Shown here: piece after piece, positions 25,117 to 39,724 of the stretch
Numbering within the stretch: position 1 is the stretch's first letter
Layout of the letters: every line of letters starts with the position of its first letter
DNA from: Herbiconiux moechotypicola
Lineage (GTDB): Bacteria > Actinomycetota > Actinomycetes > Actinomycetales > Microbacteriaceae
Direction of reading: 5' to 3'
Length of the DNA stretch: 64,000 bases
Assembly: GCF_024979255.1 (NCBI RefSeq)
Contig: NZ_JANLCN010000015.1
Coordinates: forward strand, 1 to 64,000
Notes under the pieces: generated by a model
What the model was told of the DNA's origin: nothing
Databases searched by the model: none
Seen by the model: only the letters and a program-made list of their open reading frames with translations
Made by a program: the position numbers and the translations under genes

Positions 25117-25150
25117 GCCGGTTGTGATGGGCGCGGGTATCCTGGGGGCG

Positions 25151-25504
25151 ATGACCAGACACCGCATCTTCGGCATGAGCTTCGCCCGCATCTACCCGCT
25201 CTACGTGGCGAAGGTGGAGCGGAAGGGGCACGGCCAGGCCGAGGTCGATCAGGTGATCGAGTGGCTGACGGGCTACGACGACGCAGGACTCGCCCGGGTG
25301 ATCGCCGACGGCACCGACCTGGAGACCTTCTTCGCCGAGGCGCCCGCCTTGAACGAGAATGCGCCGCTCATCACGGGCGTGATCTGCGGGATGCGGGTGG
25401 AGGAGATCGACGACCCCCTCATGCAGCGCATCCGGTGGATGGACAAGCTCGTCGACGAGGTCGCCCGCGGCAAGAAGATGTCGTCGATCCTGCGCGGCTC
25501 GTGA
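25151..25504 (+). CDS. DUF2200 domain protein
   Basis: A 117-residue protein matching the DUF2200 family: MTRHRIFGMSFARIYPLYV, KVERKGHGQAEVDQVIEWLT, then APALNENAPLITGVICGMR and KLVDEVARGKKMSSIL. Function is unknown although the family is widely conserved as a stand-alone gene. TATCCT lies seven bases before the ATG (25138-25143), so the message is probably leaderless; a slightly longer reading from 25124 is possible but not conserved. Confidence 0.85.
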   Translation: MTRHRIFGMSFARIYPLYVAKVERKGHGQAEVDQVIEWLTGYDDAGLARVIADGTDLETFFAEAPALNENAPLITGVICGMRVEEIDDPLMQRIRWMDKLVDEVARGKKMSSILRGS

Positions 25505-25519
25505 GACTGCGCGGCTGAA

Positions 25520-26029
25520 TCAGGCGGCGACGTCGACCACGAGCGAGATCGGGTCGACGGAGGTGTCGGTGGCGACGATCGAGAGCGTGCGCGAGAACGG
25601 CCGGGAGTCGGAACCCGTGAACGAGATCACGAGGAAGAGCGCCGCGCTCGAGCCGCCCGCGGCGATCTCCCCGGTATAGGAGAAGGTCACCGAGCTGTCG
25701 CTCTCTCCGGACACGTAGGCCCAGCCGGTGCCCGGGAAGGAGCCGGCCGTGAAGCCCTCCGACATGCCGCTCACCACCACGGTGAGCTCGGCGATCTCGT
25801 CGGTGGTTCCGGTGTTGCGGATGGTCAGGCCTGAGGTGGTCCCCGTCTGGCCGCTCCCCATCGCGGCGGGGTTCGGCGAGGCCTCGAAGGCCCAGATCGA
25901 AGCTGTTCCTCCGCTCGCGGCAGCGCCCGGCGCCGCGACCGCCACGGCCACGACGGGAACCGCCCACGCCGCCCCCAGCACCGTCCTTCGCGCGAGCGTG
26001 CCGGATGGATTCGTGTCTGTGTTCCCCAT
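25520..26029 (-). CDS. Tat-exported small protein, unknown function
   Basis: A 169-residue protein with a twin-arginine signal: LARRTVLGAAWAVPVVAVAV, ending near GAAASGG. The mature domain is a single beta-sandwich-like unit rich in Ser, Thr and Gly (TIRNTGTTDEIAELTVVVSG, SVTFSYTGEIAAGGSS), reminiscent of an invasin or DUF11-like extracellular module. TACGGT is six bases before the ATG (26036-26041 on the complement). Likely a secreted or surface protein; role not known. Confidence 0.7.
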   Translation of the reverse strand: MGNTDTNPSGTLARRTVLGAAWAVPVVAVAVAAPGAAASGGTASIWAFEASPNPAAMGSGQTGTTSGLTIRNTGTTDEIAELTVVVSGMSEGFTAGSFPGTGWAYVSGESDSSVTFSYTGEIAAGGSSAALFLVISFTGSDSRPFSRTLSIVATDTSVDPISLVVDVAA

Positions 26030-26122
26030 GGTCTCACCGTAGCGGAGGCGGAAGACCGCCTGTGACCGTCGTTCTCCACATCCGTTCACCACCCGTTCGT
26101 GTGCGGCGGTTAGGGTGCCGGC

Positions 26123-26890
26123 ATGCGGGGGCGGGCAATCGGGGTGGCGGCACTCATCGGGCTGGCAGGCCTGCTGCAACTGGCCCCCTCGCTGGAGCGA
26201 TGGGTGGTGCTCGCCCCGGCCTGGGGTCGCACCGACATCTCGATCGAGGACCACCGCTTCGACTACACGATGCCCTCCGACCCGTGGGAGAACCTCGGCG
26301 TGACCGCCCAGGTGCACGGGCTCGGGATGCTCGTACTGTCGGTCGGCGTGCTGCTGCTGCCGATGTCGGTGGCCCTGTCGGTGGGGGCGCGGTCGTCGGC
26401 GCTGGAGCGCGTGGTGGCCGCCGTGTGCGCGACGGGCTTCGCCGTGAGCGGGATGCACGCGCTGGTGTCTGGATTCCTCGGCGTGCCGACGCCCCTTCAG
26501 GCCATGCCGGTGCAGCTGCTGGCGACAGGGCTGCCGTTCCTCGCTCTGCTCGTGCTGGCGGGAGTGTGGCTGCGGAGCGCGTGGCCCGCATCCGTGACCT
26601 GCGTTCTGCTGCTCGGGAGCACCCTGCCGGGGTATCTGGTGGCGACCTTCCTCATCGCACCCGGGATCGCCGGGTACCAGTCGCACGACACGACGCCGTG
26701 GAGCGAGACGATCGCCGCGATCGCCACTCTCGCGGCGGCTCTGGCTACGGCTGGTCTCGCGACGACTGCGGAGAGCCGTGGGCCGCGGTCTGGCCGTGTG
26801 CCACCGAAAGCAGCAGGCGGCAGCCGAGAGGCCCCGGCACCCACCGGTGCGGCACCGACGACGGATGCGTCACCGCGCCGCCGGGCTTGA
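26123..26890 (+). CDS. Multi-span membrane protein (DUF998-like)
   Basis: A 255-residue protein with about six predicted membrane spans: residues about 6-25, 65-85, 98-118, 130-150, 155-178 and 195-215. The first loop (ISIEDHRFDYTMPSDPWENL) is outside. Topology and length resemble DUF998-type proteins, but I cannot confirm the family. TAGGGT lies six bases before the ATG (26111-26116). The last about 48 codons run antisense through the end of the convergent XRE-cupin gene and code a Pro/Ala/Arg-rich tail; this 146-base overlap is unusually long. Confidence 0.6.
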   Translation: MRGRAIGVAALIGLAGLLQLAPSLERWVVLAPAWGRTDISIEDHRFDYTMPSDPWENLGVTAQVHGLGMLVLSVGVLLLPMSVALSVGARSSALERVVAAVCATGFAVSGMHALVSGFLGVPTPLQAMPVQLLATGLPFLALLVLAGVWLRSAWPASVTCVLLLGSTLPGYLVATFLIAPGIAGYQSHDTTPWSETIAAIATLAAALATAGLATTAESRGPRSGRVPPKAAGGSREAPAPTGAAPTTDASPRRRA

Positions 26891-27341
26891 GACTGAAGCT
26901 CCTGCCGTCGTCGAGCTCGACGGTCACCGAGCCCTCGATCACGAACAGCGTCTGCTCGCCCGGGCCGCTGAACCAGCCACCGAGCGACTCGCCGGGGGCC
27001 ACGCGGTACTCGACGACCTCGAGGGGATGGCCGGCGCCGATCGTGAGCATCCGGCCCGAGGCGGAGCCGGGCTCGGCCGAGACCGGGATCATCCGGCCGC
27101 CGTCGGCGCCGACCTGCAGCACGTCGCCGGCCGAGACGGCCTCGGGCAGCAGCGCGCTCGCCGGAACACCGAGGGCGTCGGCGAGGCGGTAGAGCGTGGC
27201 CAGCGAGGGGTTCGCCCTGCCGTTCTCGACCTGGCTGAGAAAGGGCTGGCTCACCTCGACGAGCGCGGCGAGAGCTCTCATCGAGAGCCCGGCCCGCGAG
27301 CGGGCCTCCCGCACGAGCTCGCCGATGGTGGTGGCGCTCAC
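26745..27341 (-). CDS. XRE-family regulator with cupin sensor
   Basis: A 198-residue regulator. Helix-turn-helix at residues about 6-60 (LSMRALAALVEVSQPFLSQV, ENGRANPSLATLYRLADALG) and a cupin barrel at about 105-185 (EQTLFVIEGSVTVELDDG, PGGAVTHPSSVPHRWVPG). Such proteins sense a small molecule in the cupin and repress or activate nearby catabolic genes. Its ATG overlaps the stop of the monooxygenase gene to its right by four bases, so it is the last gene of the monooxygenase operon and a likely autoregulator. The palindrome at 28707-28725 is a candidate site. Confidence 0.9.
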   Translation of the reverse strand: MSATTIGELVREARSRAGLSMRALAALVEVSQPFLSQVENGRANPSLATLYRLADALGVPASALLPEAVSAGDVLQVGADGGRMIPVSAEPGSASGRMLTIGAGHPLEVVEYRVAPGESLGGWFSGPGEQTLFVIEGSVTVELDDGRSFSLKPGGAVTHPSSVPHRWVPGPLGCRLLLSVAHGQTAAHGSPQSSRDQP

Positions 27342-28690
27342 ACCGTGTACCGGGCACCCGGGTGGTCGGCGGGCAGCCGGGCCGAGCCGCCGGTGAGCAT
27401 CTCGCGCAGGGTGCCGCGGCGGGGCTCGTCGGGCAGCAGGCCGCGCGAGCGGAGCAGCGGCATGACCTCGTCGATGAACCGGCGGTAGGTGGCGACGCCG
27501 CCGACGGAGTGCTCCACCAGGAAGCCGTCGACGTCGGTGATCCGCACGATCTCCTCGATCTGGTCGGCCACGCTCTCCGGGGTGCCGGTGACCTTGAACC
27601 CGCCCATCGTCTCGCGCAGCCGGTCGAGCACGCCGCCGACGGTGAGCGTGGGGTCCTGGTATTGGGCGAGCAGTGACTGGCCCACCTCGGTGCGGATCTC
27701 GGCGAGGGTCGCATCCGGGTCGAGCGAGAGCAGGTCGACGCCGCTCCAGCCCATGAAGAGCGCTCCCATGGCTTCACGGCTGGGCGCTGTGGTGAGCGCC
27801 TCCCGGGCGACGGCGGCCTCCTCCTCGGTGTCGGCGATCACCAAGGAGAGACCGTTCACGAGCTTGATCGACTCGGGGGCGCGGCCGTGAGCGGCGGCAC
27901 GCTCGCGCAGTTCCTGCACGAGCGCCGCGCCCTTGGCGAGGTCGCGCTCCTGGATGAAGACGCACTCCGCGTAGGTCGACGCGAAGTCCTTGCCGCGCGA
28001 GGAGGCGCCGGCCTGGAACAGCGTGGGGGTGCGCTGCGGCGATGGCGGGATGGGGTAGTAGCCCTCGAGGTCGAAGCTCTCGCCGTGGTGCTGCACCTCG
28101 TGCAGGCGCTCGAGGTCGACCAGCTCACGGCTCTCCTTGCGCATGACGAGGGCGCCGTCCTCCCACGACCCCTCCCAGAGCTTCAGCGACAGGTCGACGA
28201 ACTCGGCGGCGCGGCGGTAGCGCTCGTCGTGCGGGGTGATGCCCTTCTCGCCGAGGAGCTTCACCATGGCCTCCTGGTTGTCGGAGGTGACGATGTTCCA
28301 GCCGATTCGGCCGCGCGTGAGGTGGTCGACGGTGGAGAACCGCCTGGCGTTGGTGAACGGCCGCTCGGCGGTGGTGGAGGTGGTGACGACGAAGCCCAGG
28401 CGGTCGACCGTCGCGGCGAGGCCGGTGATGAGGGAGAGCGGCTCGAGCACCGGGAACTGCACACCCTCCCGGAGCGCCACCTCGGAGGCGGCGCCGTCGG
28501 CCGTCATGGGGTAGCCGAGCGCCTCGGCGAAGAAGAGGAAGTCGAAGCCGCCGGCGTCGAGCGCGCGGGCGAGCTCCTGCCAGTAGGCGAGGGTGGTGAA
28601 GCCGCGGGTGTCCGAATCGGGGTGGCTCCAGGCGTTGCTGAGAAAAGTGGGGCCCACGATCTCGAAGGCGCCGAGCACGATGTTCTTCAT
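27338..28690 (-). CDS. LLM-class flavin-dependent monooxygenase (NtaA/SnaA/DszA type) 1
   Basis: A 450-residue flavin-dependent monooxygenase of the nitrilotriacetate/dibenzothiophene-sulfone group. It uses reduced FMN from a separate reductase and O2 to cleave C-N or C-S bonds. Signatures are FDFLFFAEALGYPM, the flavin-site segment FSTVDHLTRGRIGWNIVTS, then HDERYRRAAEFVDLSLKLWE and SPQRTPTLFQAGASSRG. CACAAT lies six bases before the ATG (28697-28702 on the complement), giving it its own probable leaderless promoter even though another monooxygenase gene ends only 32 bases upstream. The XRE-cupin gene overlaps its stop. Substrate unknown. Confidence 0.92.
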   Translation of the reverse strand: MKNIVLGAFEIVGPTFLSNAWSHPDSDTRGFTTLAYWQELARALDAGGFDFLFFAEALGYPMTADGAASEVALREGVQFPVLEPLSLITGLAATVDRLGFVVTTSTTAERPFTNARRFSTVDHLTRGRIGWNIVTSDNQEAMVKLLGEKGITPHDERYRRAAEFVDLSLKLWEGSWEDGALVMRKESRELVDLERLHEVQHHGESFDLEGYYPIPPSPQRTPTLFQAGASSRGKDFASTYAECVFIQERDLAKGAALVQELRERAAAHGRAPESIKLVNGLSLVIADTEEEAAVAREALTTAPSREAMGALFMGWSGVDLLSLDPDATLAEIRTEVGQSLLAQYQDPTLTVGGVLDRLRETMGGFKVTGTPESVADQIEEIVRITDVDGFLVEHSVGGVATYRRFIDEVMPLLRSRGLLPDEPRRGTLREMLTGGSARLPADHPGARYTV

Positions 28691-28706
28691 GCCCCGATTG
28701 TGTCAG

Positions 28707-28725
28707 TGATAAGTGGTACTTATCA
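28707..28725. promoter_or_regulatory. Perfect inverted repeat in the promoter of monooxygenase 1
   Basis: TGATAAGT and ACTTATCA are perfect complements separated by GGT. The site is AT-rich in a very GC-rich setting. On the complement it ends four bases before the -10-like CACAAT (28697-28702), so it covers the spacer and -35 position. It also contains the stop codon of monooxygenase 2. The likely ligand is the XRE-cupin regulator at the end of the same operon. Confidence 0.6.
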
Positions 28726-30126
28726 AGTGGACGCGCTGAATTCGGGGCGGAGATCGGCGCCGTGGTGCTCGGCTGCGAGATGCGGGCCCTTGCCGATGAG
28801 CCGTTCCCGCAGGGTCGTGCCCTCGGGGGCGGGGTCGAGTCGGCCGCGCCGCCGCAGCTCCGGCAGCACGAGGTCGATCACGTCGCGCATAGAGGCCGTG
28901 TTGAAGACCGCCTCCAGCATGAAGCCGTCGAGATCGGTGAGGTCGATCATCCGCTCCAGCTCGTCGGCCACCTCGACCGGGTCGCCCGTGATGGCGAAGC
29001 CGCGGGTGCCCTTGCCCTTGAGGTCGTCGAGGATCTCACGCACCGTGGGCGCCGAGCCGTCGGGGCGGGTGTAGAAGCGCTCGATGTTGCTGACGCCCAT
29101 CTGGCCGGCCAGGCCGTCGTCGGGCAGCTGGTCTTTGAGGGGCCGGTCGAAGTCGTATTCGAGCAGGTTGAGGCCGGTGTTGCCCGAGTAGTAGTGCGCG
29201 GCCAGCTCGTCGCTCTGCAGCGCCTCGAACTCGGCCCGCAGGCGGTGCGCCTCGGCGCTCGTGGGCGCGGTGATGACGGTGACGCCCACGATGAGCTTGA
29301 GGTCGGCCGGGTCGCGGCCCTCCTCGGCGGCGCGGCGGCGGATGTCGGCCACGTTCGCCGCGGTCTGCTCGTAGGTGGTGCCCTGCACGAACACGGCCTC
29401 GGCGTGCCGGGCGGCGAACGCGCGACCCGCAGCCGAGGTGCCGGCCTGGAAGAGCACGGGGGAGCGCTGCGGCGACGGTGGCTGCGTGTGGTAACCGTTC
29501 GAGCGGTAGTACTCGCCCTCGTGCACGACGGGGTGGATCTTCTGCGGGTCGGCGAACACCCCCGTCGCGCGGTCGAGCACCACCGCGTCGTCGTCGTTGC
29601 CGCCCTCCCAGAACTTCAGCGCCACCTCCACGTACTCGGCCGCGGCCTCGTAGCGCTTGTCGTGCGGCACCATCTCGGTCTGGCCGAGCATCTTGGCCAT
29701 GGTGTTCTGCGAGGCGCCGGTGACGATGTTCCAGCCGATGCGGCCCTTCGTGACGTGGTCGAGCGTGGAGTACTTGCGCACCGTGTGCAGCGGGTGGTCC
29801 GACCCCGTCGTGGTGGTCACCACGAAGCCGAGGCGGGAGGTGGCGGCGGCGAGCGCGGGGATGATGTACGAGCCGTCGAGCCCGAACATCATCCCCTCGC
29901 GCACCAGCACGTCGGAGAGCTCGCCCTTCAGCGAGGCGTAACCGAAGGAGCCGCCGGCGAAGAAGAGCAGGTCGAATCCCGCGTCGTCGAGCATCCGGGC
30001 CATCCCGATCCAGTACTCGATGTCGCGGTAGTCGCCGTTCTGGCTCTTCGGGTGGGCCCAGCTGGTGGTGCCGCCCACCTGCTGAGTGCCCGCCTCGAAG
30101 ACGCCCAGGATCATCCTCTTCGCCAT
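28723..30126 (-). CDS. LLM-class flavin-dependent monooxygenase 2
   Basis: A 467-residue member of the same NtaA/SnaA/DszA-type family: FDLLFFAGGSFGYASLKGEL, YSTLDHVTKGRIGWNIVTGA, HDKRYEAAAEYVEVALKFWE and SPQRSPVLFQAGTSAAGRAF. It is the most divergent of the four paralogues (AGGSFGY where the others have AxxxGYP; a GNDDD loop near residue 190). TAGGAGCCC precedes the ATG at 30126, and the upstream binding-protein gene stops ten bases earlier, so it is translated from the ABC-importer transcript. Together this suggests the imported compound is its substrate. The identity is not readable from the sequence. Confidence 0.92.
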   Translation of the reverse strand: MAKRMILGVFEAGTQQVGGTTSWAHPKSQNGDYRDIEYWIGMARMLDDAGFDLLFFAGGSFGYASLKGELSDVLVREGMMFGLDGSYIIPALAAATSRLGFVVTTTTGSDHPLHTVRKYSTLDHVTKGRIGWNIVTGASQNTMAKMLGQTEMVPHDKRYEAAAEYVEVALKFWEGGNDDDAVVLDRATGVFADPQKIHPVVHEGEYYRSNGYHTQPPSPQRSPVLFQAGTSAAGRAFAARHAEAVFVQGTTYEQTAANVADIRRRAAEEGRDPADLKLIVGVTVITAPTSAEAHRLRAEFEALQSDELAAHYYSGNTGLNLLEYDFDRPLKDQLPDDGLAGQMGVSNIERFYTRPDGSAPTVREILDDLKGKGTRGFAITGDPVEVADELERMIDLTDLDGFMLEAVFNTASMRDVIDLVLPELRRRGRLDPAPEGTTLRERLIGKGPHLAAEHHGADLRPEFSAST

Positions 30127-30136
30127 CGTCGGGCTC

Positions 30137-31204
30137 CTACTCGGCCGCGATCTCGTCGAGCAGGCTGAGGTCGACCGCGTCGGCGACGGGCGGCAGGTCG
30201 GTGATGCCCGAAGCCTCCATCGCCGGGTACATCTCGGTCTCCACGCGGTCGACATCCATGTAGAGCAGGCCGTGCTCGTCGGTGGTGGGGCTCTCCATGA
30301 GCTCGGCGAAGGCCTCGCCCGAGAGGGTCTGCTGCTCGAGGTCGAGGCCGAGGTCGGCTCCGAAGTCGTTCACCGCGAGCTCCGCGCCCGACGCCGGGTC
30401 GGCGAGGAAGTCCTCCCAGCCCTTGATCGAGGCGCGCAGGAACTTGAGGTAGAGGTCGCGGTTCTCCTCGAGCGCGGTGTCCTTCGCGAAGATCGACGAG
30501 GCGTAGGCGGGAGCGCCCAGGTCGCCCGAGAGGGTGCAGCCGAAGTCGTTGCCCGGCTCCAGGTCGAAGCTCAGCTCGAGGGTGATCGGCTGGTTCGTCG
30601 AGTACGCCGTGTACACGTCGCCGTCGCCGTTCACGAGCGGTGCGGGGTCGAAACCGGTGGGGATGATCGTGACCTGGTCGAGCGGGATGTCGTTGAGGGT
30701 GAGCACCTGCTCGACGGTGGCCTCGCTCTGGGCCAGGATGCGCTTGCCGATGAGGTCTTCGGGCGTCTCGATCGGGTCGTCGGCGAGCCAGAGGAAGCAG
30801 CCCGGGTTGTCTTGGAAGACCGATCCGATCACGGCGAGCTCGTCGTCGGCCATCGCGGCGAAGGCGCTCGACATGCCCGCGGTGATGCCCGCGTCGGCGG
30901 CGTCGGCCGCCACCTGCGACTCGGCGGTAGGGGCGTCGGGGCCGCCGGGGAGCCACTCCACCTCGAGCCCCTCGTCTTCGTAGTAGCCGTTGGCGGCGGC
31001 GAGCCAGAAGCCGCCGTACTCCACGTTGGAGATCCACGACATGGCCACCTTGAACGGCACGGTCTCGCCGGCGGCCGACTCGGTGGACTCGGTGCTCGAG
31101 GCGCCGGTGCTGCAGCCGGCGAGGAGGAGGGCGCCGGCGGCGAGGGAGGCGCCGGCCGCGAGGGCGCGGCGACGGCTGCGGTGAGGGGTGGGGGAACGGT
31201 GCAT
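30137..31204 (-). CDS. NMT1/THI5-type ABC substrate-binding lipoprotein
   Basis: A 355-residue periplasm-equivalent binding protein. Signal peptide with RSRRRALAAG and lipobox LLAGC (Cys31). The mature start VPFKVAMSWISNVEYGGFWL matches the SsuA/ThiY/NMT1 group, which binds sulfonates, taurine, nitrate, pyrimidines or riboflavin. GITAGMSSAFAAMADDELAV and LIGKRILAQSEATVEQVLTL are typical. An in-frame ATG six codons upstream (31222) is an alternative start. It sits after two permeases and before monooxygenase 2 in one operon, with a repeat-filled 101-base gap upstream. Ligand unknown. Confidence 0.9.
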   Translation of the reverse strand: MHRSPTPHRSRRRALAAGASLAAGALLLAGCSTGASSTESTESAAGETVPFKVAMSWISNVEYGGFWLAAANGYYEDEGLEVEWLPGGPDAPTAESQVAADAADAGITAGMSSAFAAMADDELAVIGSVFQDNPGCFLWLADDPIETPEDLIGKRILAQSEATVEQVLTLNDIPLDQVTIIPTGFDPAPLVNGDGDVYTAYSTNQPITLELSFDLEPGNDFGCTLSGDLGAPAYASSIFAKDTALEENRDLYLKFLRASIKGWEDFLADPASGAELAVNDFGADLGLDLEQQTLSGEAFAELMESPTTDEHGLLYMDVDRVETEMYPAMEASGITDLPPVADAVDLSLLDEIAAE

Positions 31205-31249
31205 GACGGTGCTCGCTTTCATCGTTGGTGGTGGTACGGGCATCTCAGG

Positions 31250-31305
31250 GGGGTGGTGCGGGTGACACCGGTGGTGCGGGGTGACACGGGTGGTGCGGCG
31301 GGGGG
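31250..31305. repeat. 18/19-base tandem repeat between permease and binding-protein genes
   Basis: The word GGTGGTGCGG starts at 31252, 31270 and 31289, each followed by a variant of GGTGACAC. The array directly follows the permease stop (on the complement) inside the importer operon. It may act as a processing or pausing element or be neutral slippage; the word resembles the G-rich field at 1-213. Confidence 0.65.
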
Positions 31306-32124
31306 TCAGGTGACGCGGTCGACGACGCGGCGCTCGAGGCTCTGGGCGAGCCCAAAGCAGAGCACCGAGAGCGCGGTCGCGACGAGGGCGGAGGCCCACT
31401 CGCGCTCGAACTGCAGGCGGTCGGCCGATGACCGGAGCAGGTCGCCGAGGCCCACTCCGGAGATGAGGTACTCGGCCAGCAGCACTCCGAGGATGGCGAT
31501 CGGGGCGCTCAGCCGCAGTGCGAGCATGATGCTCGGGATGGCGGCGGGCAGGTGCAGTCTGAGCACCCGGGTGAGCAGTCCCGCACCCAGCACGCCGAAC
31601 AGGTCGCGGCTCGACTTCGCCACCGACGACATGCCGGAGACCGTCAGCGAGAACGCCGGGAAGAACACCAGGATCACCACGATCACGACCACCGTGCCCG
31701 AGCCGTACCCGAACAGGCGGGCGAGGATGGGGATCATCGCGGTGACGGGCACGACGCGCAGGATGAGGGCGCTCGGCATGAGCAGGCCCGAGGCGAGCGG
31801 AGACATCCACACCAGTACTCCGAGCACGACGCCCACGAGCATCCCGAGCGCCAGGCCTCCCACCGCGAACAGCGTCGTCCAGAGCACGGGCCACACGTAG
31901 ACGTCGGGGTGGAGCACGAGGTCGGTGGCCACGTCGAGCGGCGAGGGTGCCACGGCACGGCTGTAGCCGTTGGCCCAGAGCCACACCGGCCAGGCGATGA
32001 GCAGCAGGATGATGGGCCAGTAGCGCTGCAGCACCACGAGCAGGAACCGTCCGACGGCGCCGCCGACGCGGCCGAAGAGGCCGCCGGTGGTGCGGGCGGC
32101 CGCCACGCTGAGGCTCTGGGTCAT
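31306..32124 (-). CDS. ABC transporter permease (SsuC/TauC type) B
   Basis: A 272-residue permease with about six spans after a cytoplasmic N terminus, beginning YWPIILLLIAWPVWLW. The family region is RDLFGVLGAGLLTRVLRLHLPA, here the equivalent of the EAA loop, followed by AIPSIMLALRLSAPIAILGV and LLAEYLISGVGLG. Its ATG overlaps the stop of the other permease by four bases. It is clearly different in sequence from that permease, so the channel is a heterodimer rather than the homodimer usual for SsuC-type systems. Confidence 0.9.
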   Translation of the reverse strand: MTQSLSVAAARTTGGLFGRVGGAVGRFLLVVLQRYWPIILLLIAWPVWLWANGYSRAVAPSPLDVATDLVLHPDVYVWPVLWTTLFAVGGLALGMLVGVVLGVLVWMSPLASGLLMPSALILRVVPVTAMIPILARLFGYGSGTVVVIVVILVFFPAFSLTVSGMSSVAKSSRDLFGVLGAGLLTRVLRLHLPAAIPSIMLALRLSAPIAILGVLLAEYLISGVGLGDLLRSSADRLQFEREWASALVATALSVLCFGLAQSLERRVVDRVT

Positions 32125-32870
32125 GCGAACCTCCTGGCCACGGCGCGCTGGGCGGCCACGGCGATGCCGTAGATGATGAGCGAGCAGATCACCGAGAGGG
32201 CGGCCGCCGCCCAGAGCAGGTCTATGCGGTAGTTCTGCATCGCGCTGATGAAGAGCACGCCGAGCCCGCGCTTGGCCCCGAACCACTCGCCGATCGTGGC
32301 GCCGAGGATCATCGCGGGCGCGGCGAGCGCGAGGCCGTCGAAGAACTTCGGCAGCGCGGCCGGCAGGTCGACCAGACCGAGTCGCGTGCCCCGGCGGGCG
32401 CCGAGCACCGTGAACAGGTCCTGGTAGGGGTGGCTCGCGACCGAGAGGCCCGAGCTCATCGAGATGTAGATGATGAAGGTCACCGAGAGTGCCACCACGA
32501 GCACGGGGGTGCCCTCGCGGCCGAGGATGAGGATGAGGAAGGGGGCCAGCGCGACGGCCGGTACGGCGTCGATGACCGCGGCGAAGCGATCCAGCCCGGG
32601 CGCCAGCACCGGCACGAGCACGGCCAGCAGGGCGAAGAAGACGCCCGCGGCGATGCCGATGGCGCCGCCGATCAGCGCTTCGGTGACCGTGGCCGCGAGC
32701 GCGTTGCCGAGCAGGGTGTGGTTGTCGGGGTCGAGGAGGAAGGCCACGACGGTCGACAGCGGCGGCCAGGTGGTGCCGAGCAGCCCCAGCTGCCCGATCA
32801 GCTCGGCCAGCACGAGGAGCACGACGACCCCCGAGACGCCGTACAGCACGGGTCGCAGACGCGAGGTCAT
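32121..32870 (-). CDS. ABC transporter permease (SsuC/TauC type) A
   Basis: A 249-residue permease with about six spans, from LYGVSGVVVLLVLAELIG on. YQDLFTVLGARRGTRLGLVDLP is the ATPase-docking loop, and LALAAPAMILGATIGEWFGA with KRGLGVLFISAMQNYRIDLL is the characteristic C-terminal part of NMT1-linked permeases. The stop overlaps permease B (ATGA); it starts four bases after the ATPase stop. All four transporter genes are therefore one operon. Confidence 0.9.
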   Translation of the reverse strand: MTSRLRPVLYGVSGVVVLLVLAELIGQLGLLGTTWPPLSTVVAFLLDPDNHTLLGNALAATVTEALIGGAIGIAAGVFFALLAVLVPVLAPGLDRFAAVIDAVPAVALAPFLILILGREGTPVLVVALSVTFIIYISMSSGLSVASHPYQDLFTVLGARRGTRLGLVDLPAALPKFFDGLALAAPAMILGATIGEWFGAKRGLGVLFISAMQNYRIDLLWAAAALSVICSLIIYGIAVAAQRAVARRFA

Positions 32871-32874
32871 CGGA

Positions 32875-33684
32875 TCAGGCGTCCTTCGGGGCGTCGAGGA
32901 GGCCGGTCAGGCGGTCGACGATGTCGTGGAACTCGGGGGAGCGGGTGAGTTCGGAGTGCTCGCGCAGCGGGAGGTCGACGTCTTCGATGTGGCGGATGCT
33001 CCCCGGGCGCCCGGTCATCACGACCACGCGGTCGGCGAGCAGCACGGCCTCATCGACGTCGTGGGTGACCAGCAGTGTGGTGATGCGCAGTTCGCTCCAG
33101 ATGCGCCCGAGCTCGCGGTTCATCCGCCGCCTCGTGACGGCGTCGAGCGCCCCGAAGGGCTCGTCGAGCAGCAGCACCTCGGGGTCGAGCACGAGGGCGC
33201 GGGCGATCGAGGCGCGCTGGCGCATGCCGCCCGAGAGCTGCTTGGGCCTGGCGTCTTCGAACCCCGCGAGTCCGACGAGGTCGATCAGTTCCTGCACGTG
33301 CGCGGTGTCGACGCTCCGCCCGGCGACGCGGTAGGGGAGGGCGATGTTCTGGCGGATGGTGAGCCAGGGGAGCAGTGAGTGCTCCTGGAAGGCGACACCG
33401 AGCCGGTGCTCGCGCGAGAGTGCCTGCGGGGTGGAGTCGCCGACCGTGACGGTGCCGGAGCTCGGCTGCTCGAGGCCCGCGACGATGCGCAGGATGGTCG
33501 ACTTGCCGCATCCGCTCGGCCCGAGCAGGGCCAGGAACTCGCCGTTGCCGATGGTGAGCGAGATGTCCTGCAGCGCCGTGAGCGTGGCGCCGCGCTTCAG
33601 TGGATAGCTCTTGCTCACCTCGGTGAGGGAGATCTCCCGCGACGGCGTGCGGGTGACCTGCTGAAGAACCGAACTCACGGGCAC
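32875..33684 (-). CDS. ABC transporter ATP-binding protein (SsuB/TauB type)
   Basis: A 269-residue ATPase. Walker A is GPSGCGKST, the Q loop is in VAFQEHSLLPWL, the signature is LSGGMRQRASIARAL, Walker B is VLLLDEPFGALD and the H loop is LVTHDVDEAV. These match the nitrate/sulfonate/taurine subfamily. GGAAG lies four bases before the GTG at 33684; GTGs at 33687 and 33678 and an ATG at 33729 are alternatives. First gene of the leftward importer-monooxygenase operon, divergent from a TetR gene, with a candidate operator 16 bases upstream. Confidence 0.92.
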   Translation of the reverse strand: MPVSSVLQQVTRTPSREISLTEVSKSYPLKRGATLTALQDISLTIGNGEFLALLGPSGCGKSTILRIVAGLEQPSSGTVTVGDSTPQALSREHRLGVAFQEHSLLPWLTIRQNIALPYRVAGRSVDTAHVQELIDLVGLAGFEDARPKQLSGGMRQRASIARALVLDPEVLLLDEPFGALDAVTRRRMNRELGRIWSELRITTLLVTHDVDEAVLLADRVVVMTGRPGSIRHIEDVDLPLREHSELTRSPEFHDIVDRLTGLLDAPKDA

Positions 33685-33699
33685 CACGCTTCCGATTGA

Positions 33700-33715
33700 T
33701 GAACTGTTCGCTTCA
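33700..33715. promoter_or_regulatory. Candidate TetR operator, copy 1
   Basis: TGAACTGTTCGCTTCA lies between the ATPase gene and the divergent TetR gene, with inverted ends TGAA/TTCA. It matches, at 14 of 16 positions, the complement of the site at 34416-34431 upstream of the other monooxygenase pair. The shared sequence is TGAACTGWTCGMTTCA. Confidence 0.6.
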
Positions 33716-33780
33716 GAGTAGGAGCGCATTGTTACCGCGGCATTACGATCGCTTTTCGTTCTGTGCGCTACTGTCGAGAC

Positions 33781-34362
33781 ATGCCAGCGCCCCTGTCCAA
33801 AGAGCGCCGCAGACTGCTCGGACTGGTGGCCGACCACATCCTCGAGCACGGGGTGAACGACATCAGCCTGAGCTCGCTCGCCCGTTCGATCGGCTCGAAC
33901 AACCGCATGCTGCTCTATTACTTCGGCTCGAAGGAGGACTTGCTCGACGAGGCGTCGCTCACGGCGCTCGAGCGGTTCCCCGGCATCCACCACCTGATGG
34001 GCGAGCTCGACGAGGACGGCGAGCCAGAGGTGCTGCTGAACCGCGCGTGGACGCGGATCGCCGACAAGCGCAACCGTCCGTTCCTCAAGCTCTTCTTCGA
34101 GCTGTTCTCGCTGCACGCCCGCCGGCCCGAGCGCAACGACGGGTACTTCCGGCGCATCGCGACGCAGTGGCCGGAGGGGGTGGCGCGACTGCTCGTGCGG
34201 GAAGGCGCCGATCCGGCCACCGCCGAGGTGTGCGCCGTCTCGATCGTCGGGCTGTGGCGCGGGCTGCAGATCTCGCTGCTGGCCGGGGTCGACGCCGACG
34301 AGCTCACGGCCGCCCATCGCCGCTCGCTCGCGGCGCTGCTGGCACCCGTGCCCGCATCCTGA
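33781..34362 (+). CDS. TetR-family transcriptional regulator
   Basis: A 193-residue TetR protein. Helix-turn-helix at about residues 15-60: ILEHGVNDISLSSLARSIGS, NNRMLLYYFGSKEDLLDEAS. The ligand-binding half has LFFELFSLHARRPERNDGYF. TACTGT lies six bases before the ATG (33769-33774), so it is probably leaderless. It lies between the divergent importer operon and the downstream monooxygenase pair, and two nearly identical operator candidates flank it (33700-33715 and 34414-34431), so it probably controls both units. Ligand presumably the imported compound or a product. Confidence 0.9.
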   Translation: MPAPLSKERRRLLGLVADHILEHGVNDISLSSLARSIGSNNRMLLYYFGSKEDLLDEASLTALERFPGIHHLMGELDEDGEPEVLLNRAWTRIADKRNRPFLKLFFELFSLHARRPERNDGYFRRIATQWPEGVARLLVREGADPATAEVCAVSIVGLWRGLQISLLAGVDADELTAAHRRSLAALLAPVPAS

Positions 34363-34413
34363 GTCAGATCGTCACGCCGATGTGACGAGGCCGAAACATC
34401 GCGCGTCTAGATT

Positions 34414-34431
34414 GTGAATCGATCAGTTCAC
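34414..34431. promoter_or_regulatory. Candidate TetR operator, copy 2
   Basis: GTGAATCGATCAGTTCAC has perfect five-base outer arms and a central GATC; 14 of 18 positions are symmetric. It is 35 bases ahead of the monooxygenase 3 start. Its complement contains TGAACTGATCGATTCA, nearly the same as copy 1 at 33700-33715. Confidence 0.65.
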
Positions 34432-34466
34432 TTTCGCAGTACGGACGACTCGGGAAGAGGTGGCGG

Positions 34467-35843
34467 ATGCCGGCTCCGTGGACCATCGGCATGTTCCAGA
34501 CGGCGGGTCTCATGGGCACCTGGCAGCTGCCGGAGAACCGGTCGACGAGCTTTCTCGAGCTCGGTCACTGGCTCGCGATGGCGCGGTCGCTCGACGCCGC
34601 AGGGGTCGACTTCCTCTTCTTCGCCGACGACTACGGCTACCCGCTGATCGACGGGGCGCTGCCGGCGCAGGCGATGCGGGGCGGCATCTCGTTTCCGCGG
34701 GCGGATCCGATGGCGATCCTGCCCGCCCTCGCCGCCGTCACCGAGCGGCTGGGGCTCGTGGTCACGCTGTCCACCACCGTGGAGAAGCCGCCGATGGTCG
34801 CGCGGAAACTCGCCACCCTCGACCACCTCACCGGCGGCCGGATCGGCTGGAACATCGTCACGGGAGCGGGCCAGAACGCCTCCACCCGGCTCTTCGGCGA
34901 GGCGATGACGCCGCACGATGAGCGGTACTCGATCGCCGACGACCACGTCGACCTCACCCTGAAGCTCTGGGAGGGCAGCTGGGACGACGACGGGTTGGTC
35001 GTCGACCGCGAGGCCAATCTGTACGCCGACCCGGAACGGGTACGCGAGATCCACCACCGGGGGTCGCACTTCTCGGCCGACGGCATCCTCACCACACCGC
35101 CCGGTCCCCAGCGCACACCGGCGCTGTTCCAGGCCGGAGCCTCGGAGCGGGGGCGTGAGCTCGCCGCGAAGTACGCCGAGGGGGTGTTCATCGCGGCCGA
35201 GGTGCCTGCCATGCGCGCGCAGATCGCCGACATCCGGCGGCGCGCCGCGGAGAACGGGCGAGACCCGGAGGCCGTGAAGTGCCTCATCGCGGGCACCATC
35301 TTCGTGGCCGAGACGGGCGCCGGGGCCCAGGAGCTGCGTCGCCGCACCGAGTCGGTGCGCAGCCTCGCCGACGCCGCGGTGCAGTACGCGTTCTTCACGG
35401 GCCTCGACCTCTCGCGGATGGACCCCGACCGGCCGCTCGAGGCGAGCGCCGCGCTCACCGAGACCGGGCGCACCAACGTCGAGCGGTTCCTCGGGCCGGG
35501 CGCGCCGACGGTGCGCCAGATCCTCGAGGAGTTCCAGCGCAACAGCGTCATGGGCTCGCCGCTGATCGGAGACCCCCGCGAGATCGCCGATCGGGCCGAG
35601 GCCGTGATGGCCGAGACCGGGGCCGACGGGTTCCTGGTGCAGCCCGACGCGTTCGGGGTGTTCGACTCGTTCGTCGAGCTGGTGCTGCCGGAGTTCCGGC
35701 GGCGCGGCCTCGTGGCGCCCGTGCCGGCGGCGGACGAACCCGTGCTCACGCTGCGCGAGCGCCTGGGTGGCGGCCCGCACCTCGACCCCGCGCATCCGGG
35801 GGCCGCTCATCGCGTGCCCTCGCGCGTCGCGATCGCGACGTGA
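34467..35843 (+). CDS. LLM-class flavin-dependent monooxygenase 3
   Basis: A 458-residue NtaA/SnaA/DszA-type monooxygenase. VDFLFFADDYGYPLI, LATLDHLTGGRIGWNIVTGA, HDERYSIADDHVDLTLKLWE and GPQRTPALFQAGASERGREL mark the family. GAAGAGGTGG precedes the ATG. Monooxygenase 4 follows after 42 bases on the same strand, and the two are close paralogues (both carry the VDFLFFADxYGYP and GRTNVERFLGP-like segments), suggesting local duplication. The candidate operator at 34414-34431 ties its control to the neighbouring TetR. No flavin reductase gene is visible in the window to supply reduced FMN. Confidence 0.92.
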   Translation: MPAPWTIGMFQTAGLMGTWQLPENRSTSFLELGHWLAMARSLDAAGVDFLFFADDYGYPLIDGALPAQAMRGGISFPRADPMAILPALAAVTERLGLVVTLSTTVEKPPMVARKLATLDHLTGGRIGWNIVTGAGQNASTRLFGEAMTPHDERYSIADDHVDLTLKLWEGSWDDDGLVVDREANLYADPERVREIHHRGSHFSADGILTTPPGPQRTPALFQAGASERGRELAAKYAEGVFIAAEVPAMRAQIADIRRRAAENGRDPEAVKCLIAGTIFVAETGAGAQELRRRTESVRSLADAAVQYAFFTGLDLSRMDPDRPLEASAALTETGRTNVERFLGPGAPTVRQILEEFQRNSVMGSPLIGDPREIADRAEAVMAETGADGFLVQPDAFGVFDSFVELVLPEFRRRGLVAPVPAADEPVLTLRERLGGGPHLDPAHPGAAHRVPSRVAIAT

Positions 35844-35885
35844 TCCCCGTCACGACGACCTGACACACCACGAAGGAGACGCACC

Positions 35886-37250
35886 ATGACGAAGAAGCTG
35901 GCCATCGGCATGTTCCAGGGCGGAGGCGTGCGTCAGAGCTGGAAGATCGCCGGCCGCGAGAACGACCCGAACTTCACCGACCTGGGTTACTGGATCGACC
36001 TGGCGAAGAAGTGCGAGGCGGCGGGCGTCGACTTCCTGTTCTTCGCCGACTCCTACGGTTACCCCACGCTGCACGGCGAGATCGTGCCCACCGCGGTCGA
36101 ACGCAACGTGCAGTTCAGCACGGTCGACCCGCACACGCTCATCGCCGCGCTGGCGGCGGTGACGACCAAGCTCGGGCTCGTCACCACCACGTCGACCATG
36201 GTGGAGGCCCCGCCCGCCCTCACCCGCCAGTACCGGTCTCTCGACCACTTCTCGGCGGGACGCGTGGGATGGAACATCGTGACGGGGTCGGCGCAGGCGG
36301 CTTCGGCGATGCTGTTCGGAGAAGACCTCATGCCGCACGACGAGCGGTACGCGAAGGCGGCCGAGCACGTGGAGCTGTCGCTGAAGTTCTGGGAGGGATG
36401 CTGGGAACCCGACGCCCTGGTGCGCGACGGGGCGAACGGCGTGTGGGCCGACCCCGCCAAGGTGCACGAGATCGTGCACGACGGCACCTACTTCAAGGCC
36501 AAGGGGGTGCTCGTCACGCCGCCGAGCCCGCAGGTGACGCCCGTGCTCTTCCAGGCCGGTGCCTCGAGCGCCGGCCGGGCCCTCGCGGCGCGCTACGCCG
36601 AGGCGGTCTTCCTCGCCGCGGAGTCGAAGGCACTGGCGGCGCAGATCGCCGACATCCGCCGGCTCGCGGTGGAGAACGGGCGTGGGGCGGATGCGGTGAA
36701 GTGCCTCATCGCCGGCACCTTCCGGGTGGCCGACAGCCGCGCCCAGGCGGAGGCGGAGCACCAGGCGATCATCGACCGCATCTCGCTCGAGCACGCCGCC
36801 ACCCTCTACGCCTACTTCACCGGAATCGACCTGCTCTCGCTCGACCTCGACAAGCCCATTCCCGAGAGCGCGGCGAACGGCGACAACGGGCGCACCAACA
36901 TCGAGCGCTTCCTCGGCCCCGACGCGCCCACGGTGCGCGAGGTGCTCGAGGAGTTCCGGGCCAACGGCGTGATGGGCAAGCCGTTCCTCGGCACACCGGA
37001 GGAGATCGCCGACCAGGCCGAGGCGATGATCGAGGAGACCGGTGCCGACGGCTTCCTGGTGCAGCCCGAGTTCGACGGCGGGCACGACCTCTTCTTCGGC
37101 CGGGTGATGCCGGAGCTGCGGCGGCGTGGGCTGCTGAAAGACGAGCTCGAGGGGGCGACGCTGCGCGAGCACCTGTTCGGAGAAGGGTCGGTGCTGCTGC
37201 CGGAGAGCCACCCGGGAGCGGGGTTCCGCGCCGCGAACGCGCTGGTGTAG
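35886..37250 (+). CDS. LLM-class flavin-dependent monooxygenase 4
   Basis: A 454-residue paralogue of monooxygenase 3, beginning MTKKLAIGMFQGGGVRQSWK. VDFLFFADSYGYPTLHGEI, YRSLDHFSAGRVGWNIVTGS, HDERYAKAAEHVELSLKFWE and SPQVTPVLFQAGASSAGRAL identify the family. GAAGGAG lies seven bases before the ATG. It is the last gene of the TetR-side unit. Two oxygenases acting in sequence, or on different substrates, would both require reduced flavin from elsewhere in the genome. Confidence 0.92.
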   Translation: MTKKLAIGMFQGGGVRQSWKIAGRENDPNFTDLGYWIDLAKKCEAAGVDFLFFADSYGYPTLHGEIVPTAVERNVQFSTVDPHTLIAALAAVTTKLGLVTTTSTMVEAPPALTRQYRSLDHFSAGRVGWNIVTGSAQAASAMLFGEDLMPHDERYAKAAEHVELSLKFWEGCWEPDALVRDGANGVWADPAKVHEIVHDGTYFKAKGVLVTPPSPQVTPVLFQAGASSAGRALAARYAEAVFLAAESKALAAQIADIRRLAVENGRGADAVKCLIAGTFRVADSRAQAEAEHQAIIDRISLEHAATLYAYFTGIDLLSLDLDKPIPESAANGDNGRTNIERFLGPDAPTVREVLEEFRANGVMGKPFLGTPEEIADQAEAMIEETGADGFLVQPEFDGGHDLFFGRVMPELRRRGLLKDELEGATLREHLFGEGSVLLPESHPGAGFRAANALV

Positions 37251-37310
37251 CCGGTGCGGTGGCCGACTGGCTTCGTGGCCGACCGGCGCTCTGTGTCGTA
37301 GCCTGGCGGT

Positions 37311-38816
37311 GTGACGGGGGTCGCGACGGGCGCACCGGCGGGGTCGCGCATCCTGCCGCGGTTCGCGCGCCTGCCCGTGCTCTCGGCGGCGGGTGCGCTC
37401 GCCCTGGTGCTCGCGCTCACGGCCGGAGGCTACGGGTACCACCGTGATGAGCTCTACTTCAGGATGCTCGAGCCGGCCTGGGGCTACCTCGACCAGCCGC
37501 CCCTCACACCCCTGCTGGCCAAGCTGAGCACGCTGATCGCCGACGAGCCCTGGGCGTTGCGGCTGTGGCCGCTGCTGTTCGCGGTGGCATCCGTCGCGGT
37601 GGTGGCTCTCCTCGCCCGAGAACTCGGCGGTGGGGCCTTCGCGCAGGGGCTCGCCGCGTGGGGGTACGCCTTCGGGTCGTTCACGCTCACCTTCGGTCAC
37701 GCCCTCTTCACGGCGTCGCTCGACCTGCTCGTGTGGCCGCTCGTGGTGCTGGCCGTGCTGCGGGCGCTCCGAGGCTGGCCGGAGCCCGCGCAGCCCTGGT
37801 GGTGGCTCGTGGCCGGAGCGATCGTGGGGCTCAGCCTCGACAACAAGCTGCTGGTCGCGCTGCTGCTGCTCTCGCTCGCCGCGGGCATCCTCGTCGCCGG
37901 GCCCCGCGGCGTGCTGCGCACACGCTGGCCCTACCTCGGGGTCGCGGTCATGTTCGTGCTCGGCGCCCCCGCCCTGGTCTACCAGGCGCTGAACGGATGG
38001 CCGCAGCTCGCGATGGGCGGTGCGCTCTCGAGCGGCAACGCCGGCGAGGTGCGGGTGCTGATGTGGCCGTTCCTCGCGCTGCTGCTCGGGCCGCTGCTGG
38101 TGCCCATCTGGGTGGCCGGCCTCGTCGGGCTGCTCCGCCGTGCGGCCTGGCGTTCTGCGCGCTTCCTGGCGGTCGCCTTCGGTGTGCTGCTGGTGCTGGT
38201 GGCGATCGCGGGGGCGCAGTTCTACTACCCCTACGGGCTGCTGGTGTGCGTGTACGCGGCCGGATGCGTCGTGGTCGCCGACTGGGCGGGGTCGTGGCCG
38301 GGGCGGAGGCTGCGGCGGGTGCTCCTGGTTGCGGCCGTTGCGGTGAACTCCGTGGTGAGCGCCGTCATCTCCCTGCCGATCGTGCCGGTCGACGTGCTCG
38401 GGGCCACGCCCATCCCGGCGATGAACCAGTCGGTCGCCGACCAGGTCGGGTGGCCCGCCTACGTCGCGCAGGTGGAGCGTGCCGCCCTCGACTCCGGAGC
38501 CGACGTCGTGATCGCGAGCAACTACGGCGAGGCGGGCGCGCTCGACCGGTACGGGGGTGATGCGCTCCCGCCCGTTGTGAGCGGGCACAACGCCCTGGCC
38601 GCGGCCAGACGCCCGGCGGCCGACGCCGAGGCGGCGGTCGTCGTCGGTGGTCAGTTCGAGCGGGTGCGAGATCTGTTCGCCCGCTGCGCCGTCGTCGACG
38701 AGCTCGACTCGGGTCTCGGCGTCGACAACGAGGAGCAGGGCGAGCCGATGGCCGTCTGCTCCGGCCCCGTGCGCCCGTGGGCCGAGCTCTGGCCTTCGTT
38801 CGCCCACCTGAACTGA
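37311..38816 (+). CDS. GT39-like membrane glycosyltransferase
   Basis: A 501-residue polytopic protein of the ArnT/dolichyl-phosphate-mannose mannosyltransferase type. The first outside loop has GYHRDELYFRML with the Asp-Glu pair of the catalytic site, followed by WGYLDQPPLTPLLAKLST, then about ten membrane spans to residue 360 and an exported C-terminal domain of about 130 residues. Such proteins transfer sugar from a polyprenyl-phosphate donor to lipids, wall polymers or proteins on the outer face. TAGCCT lies six bases before the GTG (37299-37304), so the message is probably leaderless. Acceptor unknown. Confidence 0.8.
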   Translation: MTGVATGAPAGSRILPRFARLPVLSAAGALALVLALTAGGYGYHRDELYFRMLEPAWGYLDQPPLTPLLAKLSTLIADEPWALRLWPLLFAVASVAVVALLARELGGGAFAQGLAAWGYAFGSFTLTFGHALFTASLDLLVWPLVVLAVLRALRGWPEPAQPWWWLVAGAIVGLSLDNKLLVALLLLSLAAGILVAGPRGVLRTRWPYLGVAVMFVLGAPALVYQALNGWPQLAMGGALSSGNAGEVRVLMWPFLALLLGPLLVPIWVAGLVGLLRRAAWRSARFLAVAFGVLLVLVAIAGAQFYYPYGLLVCVYAAGCVVVADWAGSWPGRRLRRVLLVAAVAVNSVVSAVISLPIVPVDVLGATPIPAMNQSVADQVGWPAYVAQVERAALDSGADVVIASNYGEAGALDRYGGDALPPVVSGHNALAAARRPAADAEAAVVVGGQFERVRDLFARCAVVDELDSGLGVDNEEQGEPMAVCSGPVRPWAELWPSFAHLN

Positions 38817-38828
38817 GCCAGGTTCAGG
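38807..38828. terminator. Short hairpin spanning two convergent stop codons
   Basis: CCTGAAC (38807-38813) pairs with GTTCAGG (38822-38828) around an eight-base loop. It includes the stop codons of both the GT39-like gene and the convergent hydrolase. The stem is only seven pairs, so its strength is uncertain. Confidence 0.4.
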
Positions 38829-39612
38829 GTCGGGGCGCGCCGGCTGCCGCCACATGTCGGAGTATGCCGGGCACGATGACGTCCCAGCTCGGCGGAGGCG
38901 GGAACTGGTGGCCAAGCCCGGGCACCTCGAGCAGGCGGGCACCGCGAATGCGCCGGGCGAGCGAACGCCCGTGCTCGAGGGGGAACAGGGGGTCTTCGGT
39001 GCCGTGCACCACGAGCGTCGGGGCCACGACACGGGCCAGCCGGGGGCGTTCGCTCTCGCTGCCCCCGAGCATCCCGTGGTTGCCGGCGGCGGCGAGGTCG
39101 ACCGAGCGGTCGAAGACGGAGTCGGAGATGGCCCGGAGGCGGTCGACGTCGATCGGGAGGGTGCCGCCGAAGGCCCGCTCGTCGGCGAGGGCGGCGCGGA
39201 ACGCGGATTCCCGGTCTGCCGGAGCCGGCCGCTCCGCGAGCACCTCGAAGTACTCCTCGAGCTCGGGGGTGATGCCGGGCAGCTCTTCCGCCGGATCGGA
39301 CGGGTCGATCGCCGTGGTCGACAGCAGCGTCAGCGAGGCCACGCTGCCGGGATGCTCGGCCGCGAGCTGCTGGGCGAGCGCTCCGCCCATCGACAGGCCC
39401 GCCACGTGGGCGGGGCCGCGGCCGAGCACGGCGACCAGTCCGCGCAGGTCGGCGACCAGGTCGTCTCCGCCGTAGTCCGGGCTCCCGGGTGGCCGGGTGG
39501 TGGACTCGCCGGTGTCACGCAGGTCGTAGCGCACCACGCGGTGGCCCCTGCTGGAGAGCGCGGAGCAGAAGCCCGGGTCCCACCAGTCCGAAGCCGACGA
39601 CGCCCCGGGCAC
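38824..39612 (-). CDS. Alpha/beta hydrolase, start codon uncertain
   Basis: At least 262 residues of an alpha/beta hydrolase: PGASSASDWWDPGF (oxyanion region), YDLRDTGESTT, nucleophile elbow GLSMGGALAQQLA, acid in LVVHGTEDPLFPLEHG and His in VPGLGHQFPPP. Only GTG at 39612 is available as a standard start, but it lies inside the first core strand (IVLVPGAS). Family-like sequence (GVNGVDLSVEIFSNEG) continues upstream in the same frame to about 39717, eight bases from the stop of the DUF805 gene, with no ATG, GTG or TTG in frame. So the true start is non-standard, or there is an error or a decayed start. Substrate unknown. Confidence 0.75.
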   Translation of the reverse strand: MPGASSASDWWDPGFCSALSSRGHRVVRYDLRDTGESTTRPPGSPDYGGDDLVADLRGLVAVLGRGPAHVAGLSMGGALAQQLAAEHPGSVASLTLLSTTAIDPSDPAEELPGITPELEEYFEVLAERPAPADRESAFRAALADERAFGGTLPIDVDRLRAISDSVFDRSVDLAAAGNHGMLGGSESERPRLARVVAPTLVVHGTEDPLFPLEHGRSLARRIRGARLLEVPGLGHQFPPPPSWDVIVPGILRHVAAAGAPRP

Positions 39613-39724
39613 CAGAACGATGTCGCCCGCGGGGCCGCCGCGCGGCGCATCCGGACCCTCGTTCGAGAAGATCTCGACCGAGAGGTCGACGCCGTTGACC
39701 CCGACCCGGTGGTGGATGCTCGGG

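Follow-up and report, generated by a model that had tools for sequence, protein, structure and literature searches.

Described systems and the Herbiconiux locus

The alkanesulfonate (ssu), nitrilotriacetate (NTA) and ethylenediaminetetraacetate (EDTA) operons share a logic in which an importer is encoded with a luciferase-like monooxygenase (LLM) and a flavin reductase, and LLM enzymes typically break C-N or C-S bonds. We analysed a ten-gene block (26,745-37,250) in 64 kb of Herbiconiux moechotypicola DNA (positions 1 to 64,000 of contig NZ_JANLCN010000015.1, hereafter the window), which combines one ATP-binding cassette (ABC) importer with four LLM genes and two regulators. The reading that we favour, and consider somewhat probable, is that eight of these genes form a TetR-controlled catabolic cassette importing and oxidising a purine-like N-heterocycle, directly upstream of a resident pair, LLM1 and an XRE-cupin regulator. 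Features that set the cassette apart from the ssu, NTA and EDTA systems are TetR regulation, as many as three LLM families, a binding protein of aminopyrimidine-type fold and, in relatives, a deaminase.

Riboflavin monooxygenase RcaE releases ribose from riboflavin and is encoded by a five-gene cluster in Microbacterium maritypicum G10, from a genus of the Microbacteriaceae (PMC12746152). The cassette oxygenases share an LLM subgroup with the solved riboflavin lyase 5w48 and are likewise assigned as FMN-dependent, but 5w48 branches outside them, and the cassette has its own NMT1-type importer and TetR. That importer resembles the ThiY importer of formylaminopyrimidine (FAMP) in its PF09084 family and fold and its two-permease/ATPase layout; it differs in having no riboswitch match, in having paralogues near purine genes, and in being tied to LLM genes and, in relatives, a deaminase. 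This deaminase, present in most cassettes, belongs to the adenosine-deaminase family (COG1816), as does the cytokinin deaminase Patl2390, although its gene is absent from the window. Patl2390 accepts N6-methyl- and N6,N6-dimethyl-adenine and not adenine or adenosine (PMC13296781), and a second source names further deaminases specialised for alkylated nucleobases (PMC13054789). Among the matches listed in the open-access literature, a scope outside which most subscription papers lie, there is no description of the cassette arrangement, nor of riboflavin-lyase-related oxygenases acting on imported purine-like compounds. To this extent an earlier sequence-only reading of the window, which knew of no named pathway with this gene order, is borne out.

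That reading had also named the ten genes and their families, and in this it proved correct. Pfam and NCBIfam scans confirm all ten within the block: an XRE helix-turn-helix protein with a cupin domain, four LLM proteins, a PF09084 binding protein, two BPD_transp_1 permeases, an ABC ATPase and a TetR_N protein. No flavin reductase is found among the ten, as it had stated, and the window has neither an adenosine-deaminase-family gene nor a flavin reductase beside the cassette. The binding protein, two permeases and ATPase together have the layout of an NMT1/THI5-type importer. The four LLM proteins, which are 41-53% identical to each other, score 399.5-438.1 bits against TIGR03860 (NtaA/DmoA FMN-dependent monooxygenases, cut-off 279.7). 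Such proteins are very common in this genome, with 65 PF00296 matches in 4.28 Mb (at least two proteins giving two each) and at least 33 matches to TIGR03860 (33 of the 65 candidates scored), so that four side by side are less striking than they appear. Across 16 genomes of the genus, TIGR03860 matches at E <= 0.001 number 9-51 per genome, these being lower bounds for some.

A resident gene pair and an eight-gene cassette

Gene order and sequence similarity indicate that the block is composite, an XRE-cupin/LLM1 pair (26,745-28,690) abutting a cassette of eight genes (28,723-37,250). Both genes of the pair lie on the minus strand, LLM1 at 27,338-28,690 (TIGR03860 438.1 bits) and the XRE-cupin regulator at 26,745-27,341 (PF01381/PF13560 and PF07883), the start of the latter overlapping the LLM1 stop by 4 bp. 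The cassette consists of two divergent units. On the minus strand are LLM2 (28,723-30,126, 423.2 bits), the substrate-binding lipoprotein (30,137-31,222, PF09084), permeases 1 and 2 (31,306-32,124 and 32,121-32,870, both PF00528) and the ATPase (32,875-33,684, PF00005, with a GTG start of our choosing); on the plus strand are TetR (33,781-34,362, PF00440), LLM3 (34,467-35,843, 399.5 bits) and LLM4 (35,886-37,250, 404.3 bits).

Two congeners, G155 and G307, have no homologue of the cassette binding protein at E <= 1e-60 and keep the pair, an LLM1 orthologue (89-90% identical) followed by an XRE orthologue (71-72%). Their gene order is that of the window, from the counterpart of the gene at 25,127-25,504 (83%) through XRE and LLM1 to that of the gene at 39,725-40,168 (71-77%), and the synteny continues with the genes at 43,116 and 44,126 up to 47,617-49,332. 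The distance from LLM1 to the match of the 39,725 gene is about 1.1 kb in G155, with one gene of 304 amino acids, as against 11 kb in the window. Nucleotide similarity to both congeners ends at 28,691-28,692, the LLM1 start, placing the left edge of the cassette at 28,691-28,722, and restarts near 39,731, which indicates that the genes of 28,723-37,250 and the two following are extra in the window. In G301, a Herbiconiux metagenome-assembled genome (MAG) with the nearest full cassette, the cassette and an LLM1 homologue (60%) lie on different contigs. The flanks also differ from G155 and G307 at 25,520-26,890, 37,311-39,612 and 40,204-42,986, which speaks against insertion in one clean event. 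No direct or inverted terminal repeats of 11-14 bp were found between 28,640-28,760 and either 37,200-37,420 or 38,780-39,780, nor is the cassette set apart by its base composition (GC content 70.2%, flanks 72.3% and 71.6%). The flanking genes at 26,123 and 37,311 each occur in three of the 16 genus genomes and are uninformative on the empty site.

Since G155 and G307 have LLM1-XRE but not the cassette, we reject a single pathway with four oxygenases. The sequence-only reading had treated the four oxygenases as one set tied to one importer; the tie holds for the three LLM of the cassette, for which a shared predicted TetR operator can be added, and LLM1 falls outside it as part of a separate resident unit.

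A perfect 19-bp palindrome (8-3-8) at 28,707-28,725 covers the LLM2 stop codon and is a possible operator. Palindromes of the same form precede the LLM gene of two further XRE-LLM pairs in this genome (L080, 4,043-4,061; L088, 8,959-8,977), and eight of 492 upstream windows contain one, the three XRE-LLM pairs included. We do not claim it as the XRE operator, as the orthologous pairs in G155 and G307 have none at LLM1. An open reading frame for a membrane protein (26,123-26,890) runs antisense to the XRE gene and shares 146 bp with the 3' end of that gene; its matches in two congeners end about 30 residues short of the end of the reading frame.

Cassette distribution and the predicted TetR regulon

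A profile search of genome contigs with an LLM3 alignment returned 14 loci, 13 close and one distant (Sphingobium L067, 36% identical, not counted as a cassette). Together with further loci these yield cassettes in 13 genomes, the window included; loci of the same genome (L054/L066, L040/L056, L039/L068, L042/L064 and L041/L059) are counted once, and two with LLM3 and no importer (L061 and L065) are counted as LLM3 loci only. The twelve other holders comprise eleven of Microbacteriaceae type (Herbiconiux nzgw89, Planctomonas, Microbacterium lacus, a Cryobacterium MAG, M. excoecariae, two VKM Microbacteriaceae strains, Rathayibacter, Glaciihabitans, Naasia and G072) and Nakamurella leprariae. 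Homologues of TetR and of LLM3 (57-81% identical) accompany the importer orthologue in all 13 genomes, with LLM3 elsewhere in the genome in Naasia and TetR-LLM3 on another contig (L188) in G072. Other components are less constant at the locus: LLM2 is present in eight of 13, LLM4 in six and LLM1-XRE only in the window, the G072 locus (L043) running into its contig end after the deaminase gene, before any LLM2 or LLM4. The window, the other Herbiconiux and the Nakamurella cassettes have a common divergent layout. The Nakamurella copy, from a bacterium of a different taxonomic order, is 72-87% identical, close to the 78-90% of the congener copy; this fits horizontal transfer, and the cassette was probably acquired from another bacterium. 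No plasmid copy was found, the best place among 1263 plasmid records with an LLM3 match being less than 60% identical.

Two 16-bp palindromes are predicted TetR operators. Operator A (33,700-33,715, TGAACTGTTCGCTTCA) lies 15 bp from the chosen ATPase start and operator B (34,415-34,430, TGAATCGATCAGTTCA) 36 bp before LLM3, and these are the only two places in the window with TGAA-N8-TTCA. The longer form TGAACTGNNCGNTTCA, with up to two mismatches, has three matches in the window, exact at both operator sites and with two mismatches inside LLM4; the chance mean is 0.65, and three or more matches arise in four of 100 shuffles. A like palindrome precedes the ATPase in 13/13 cassettes and LLM3 in 15/15 homologues, among them the Naasia LLM3, which is remote from the importer, and those of L061 and L065, where there is no importer. 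A fuller pattern, written from the known sites and thus matching cassettes by construction while testing rarity elsewhere, finds 37 distinct places in 13 whole genomes (24 cassette sites, one in Frondihabitans and 12 elsewhere); in this genome and in G301 it occurs only at the two block sites. M. excoecariae has one additional TGAA-N8-TTCA in its 21-kb locus. In Frondihabitans a like palindrome lies between homologues of TetR (40%) and LLM2 (58%) (L190, G716 C3:444,969), apart from the LLM3 locus of the same genome.

The conserved palindromes ahead of importer and LLM3 suggest that the importer and LLM2-4 form one regulon, to whose operators TetR would bind. Cassette and predicted regulon, taken together, we regard as highly probable on these comparative grounds. 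That ten unrelated genes merely resemble a block is hardly credible: the genome is full of LLM genes and LLM1-XRE is separate, but a conserved core and shared palindromes across genera contradict it for the eight cassette genes, and it would hold just for LLM1-XRE relative to the cassette.

Import, deamination and candidate substrates

Members of the importer's family occur in 77 of 299 Microbacteriaceae genomes. Purine markers lie within about 8 kb of 25 of 40 importer-family loci, compared with one of 40 control windows; the markers were chosen from loci inspected beforehand, and the 40 loci were picked by hand, leaving out cassettes, 14 importer loci inspected earlier, places near contig starts and some same-genus repeats. 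The likely substrate class of the importer family is accordingly purine-like. The window itself has no purine marker, and ten of the 13 cassettes (the window counted among the 13) carry an adenosine-deaminase-family gene, which follows the binding-protein gene. The Planctomonas deaminase scores 252.9 bits against TIGR01430 (cut-off 216.55), and its best solved match is 3ou8, which we take to be the adenine deaminase PA0148. The specificity of described relatives of this deaminase makes an N-substituted purine attractive as substrate without proving it, and we lean, by a small measure, towards a purine-like compound for the cassette.

In this purine-directed cassette the lipoprotein and ABC importer would take up a flat N-heterocycle of purine or aminopyrimidine type, and TetR, bound at the two operators, would repress both divergent units until the compound or an early product arrives. 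LLM2, LLM3 and LLM4 would then oxidise it with reduced FMN from elsewhere in the cell, perhaps by breaking a C-N bond (in N-dealkylation or ring opening, for instance), as family chemistry suggests, and in most related cassettes the deaminase, missing here, would strip an exocyclic amine. Some related cassettes have flavin reductases as neighbours. Those beside the Planctomonas and Glaciihabitans cassettes are HsaB/HpaC-like and SsuE-like, on NCBIfam matches that fall below cut-off, and a reductase follows LLM3 in M. excoecariae and PS02343 (35% and 55% identical, respectively, to that of Glaciihabitans); the nearest relative of the Glaciihabitans-type enzyme in this genome is 37% identical. 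A bolder version, which we put forward only tentatively and think doubtful, is an undescribed O2-dependent route for modified purines (N6-alkyl adenines of cytokinin type, purine alkaloids) under one TetR and moving between actinobacterial orders. There, a purine-analogue importer would feed the deaminase and as many as three two-component flavin oxygenases of riboflavin-lyase kinship; these oxygenases would remove substituents or break the ring open with no need of xanthine dehydrogenase, and the deaminase-less Herbiconiux version would take a substrate already in oxo form.

Several observations weigh against a purine-like substrate. The deaminase is absent from three of 13 cassettes, those of two Herbiconiux (the window included) and Nakamurella; the nearest deaminase in this genome is 43% identical and lies elsewhere (C22:215,920, about 9 kb from a 51% LLM2 paralogue), and the best in G301 is 34% identical. 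The control windows were drawn at random rather than from other importers, and some genera contributed several test genomes, making p values nominal. Beside importer paralogues there is no enrichment of LLM genes (8/40 against 5/40, p=0.27), so that the purine link rests on importer and deaminase. The AlphaFold2 (AF2) model of the binding protein is nearest to solved proteins that bind thiamin or the aminopyrimidine FAMP, not purine. Finally, relative to paralogues, cassette binding proteins change at positions 60, 72 and 73 (Q60 to A/S, E72 to F, Y/F73 to W; 11 of 13 cassette proteins and 80 paralogue sequences, some included twice from overlapping loci), and the ligand may have changed with them.

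The fold lends itself to a different reading of the same cassette and regulon, in which the substrate is a thiamin-type aminopyrimidine (hydroxymethylpyrimidine, FAMP or thiamin fragments) and the relatives' deaminase acts on its 4-amino group. We think this unlikely: no Rfam family reaches the gathering score, either in the window or across 20 short loci of importer paralogues, and the TenA marker is found in none of the 40 importer-paralogue windows, where purine markers are enriched. TPP-riboswitch control is typical of thiamin-precursor (ThiY) importers, and riboswitch control of this locus is rejected on the Rfam result. A locus in this genome brings some support to the aminopyrimidine reading, as it holds an NMT1-type importer, two TenA-like proteins, an amidohydrolase, a GMC-type oxidoreductase and LLM genes (L047, G000 C5:70,000-89,500; labels from NCBIfam matches below cut-offs); it is possibly concerned with thiamin or aminopyrimidine breakdown. 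About as unlikely is a xenobiotic or natural N-alkyl or C-S compound other than a purine, with the importer recruited from the purine-linked family and its ligand changed. The motif changes would suit it, and solved LLM relatives include dimethyl-sulfide, alkane, hexachlorobenzene, NTA and EDTA enzymes, but the deaminase-family gene of ten cassettes points to an aminated ring, and sulfonate binders are lower in fold score, which also disfavours sulfonate import.

Degradation of riboflavin or another flavin, with one or more LLM acting as riboflavin lyase, an enzyme that yields lumichrome and ribose, is improbable. The lyase 5w48 is the best solved match of all four LLM proteins (38-42% identity, nearest for LLM4 as for the rest), with dimethyl-sulfide monooxygenase nearly tying for LLM1 and LLM2. 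In a FastTree phylogeny of 73 sequences, however, LLM1-4 form one clade (0.976) with 5w48 just outside (node 0.79; wider clade 0.985), an argument weakened by riboflavin lyase being represented, in tree and identities alike, by 5w48 only and not by M. maritypicum RcaE. LLM1-4 thus appear related to riboflavin lyase and, as far as 5w48 shows, not orthologous to it, and riboflavin catabolism is disfavoured on tree position and identity. The rca cluster reportedly contains a kinase-like gene; none was recognised among the cassette neighbours, where no dedicated search was made. Of the substrates proposed by the sequence-only reading, a pyrimidine- or purine-type heterocycle fits best, riboflavin is unlikely and sulfonate less likely. 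Within the clade of LLM1-4, LLM3 and LLM4 are sister families (0.995), distinct across genera. A purine link for the whole clade is rejected, as about three of seven other members in this genome (L052, L079, L080) have such neighbours and LLM genes show no enrichment near the importer paralogues.

If the favoured purine-directed cassette is correct, riboflavin-lyase-related flavin oxygenases would act on imported purine-like compounds, and the cassette would offer actinobacteria of soil or plants a plausible means of using modified purines or making them inactive. A cluster that had no assignment thus becomes a regulon open to testing, with two candidate operators and few ligands to consider.

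Other loci place related genes in further settings. At L079 (G000 C22:204,000-222,000) the 51% LLM2 paralogue lies beside an amidohydrolase and the 43% adenosine-deaminase-family gene, with what we take to be a nucleoside-type ABC importer and Rieske-type oxygenase genes; one of the latter matches a methylsterol monooxygenase model at a score below the cut-off, and another has no match. The Frondihabitans locus L065 has LLM3 with a 31% deaminase-family gene and no importer, and may show further pathway steps; its neighbours are presumably an aldehyde dehydrogenase, an LLM2-like oxygenase, parts of a thiamin pyrophosphate (TPP) enzyme and a GMC oxidoreductase. At L089 (G000 C1:65,000-84,500) an LLM3-like gene (48%) directly follows two genes that we assume to be UbiX and UbiD.

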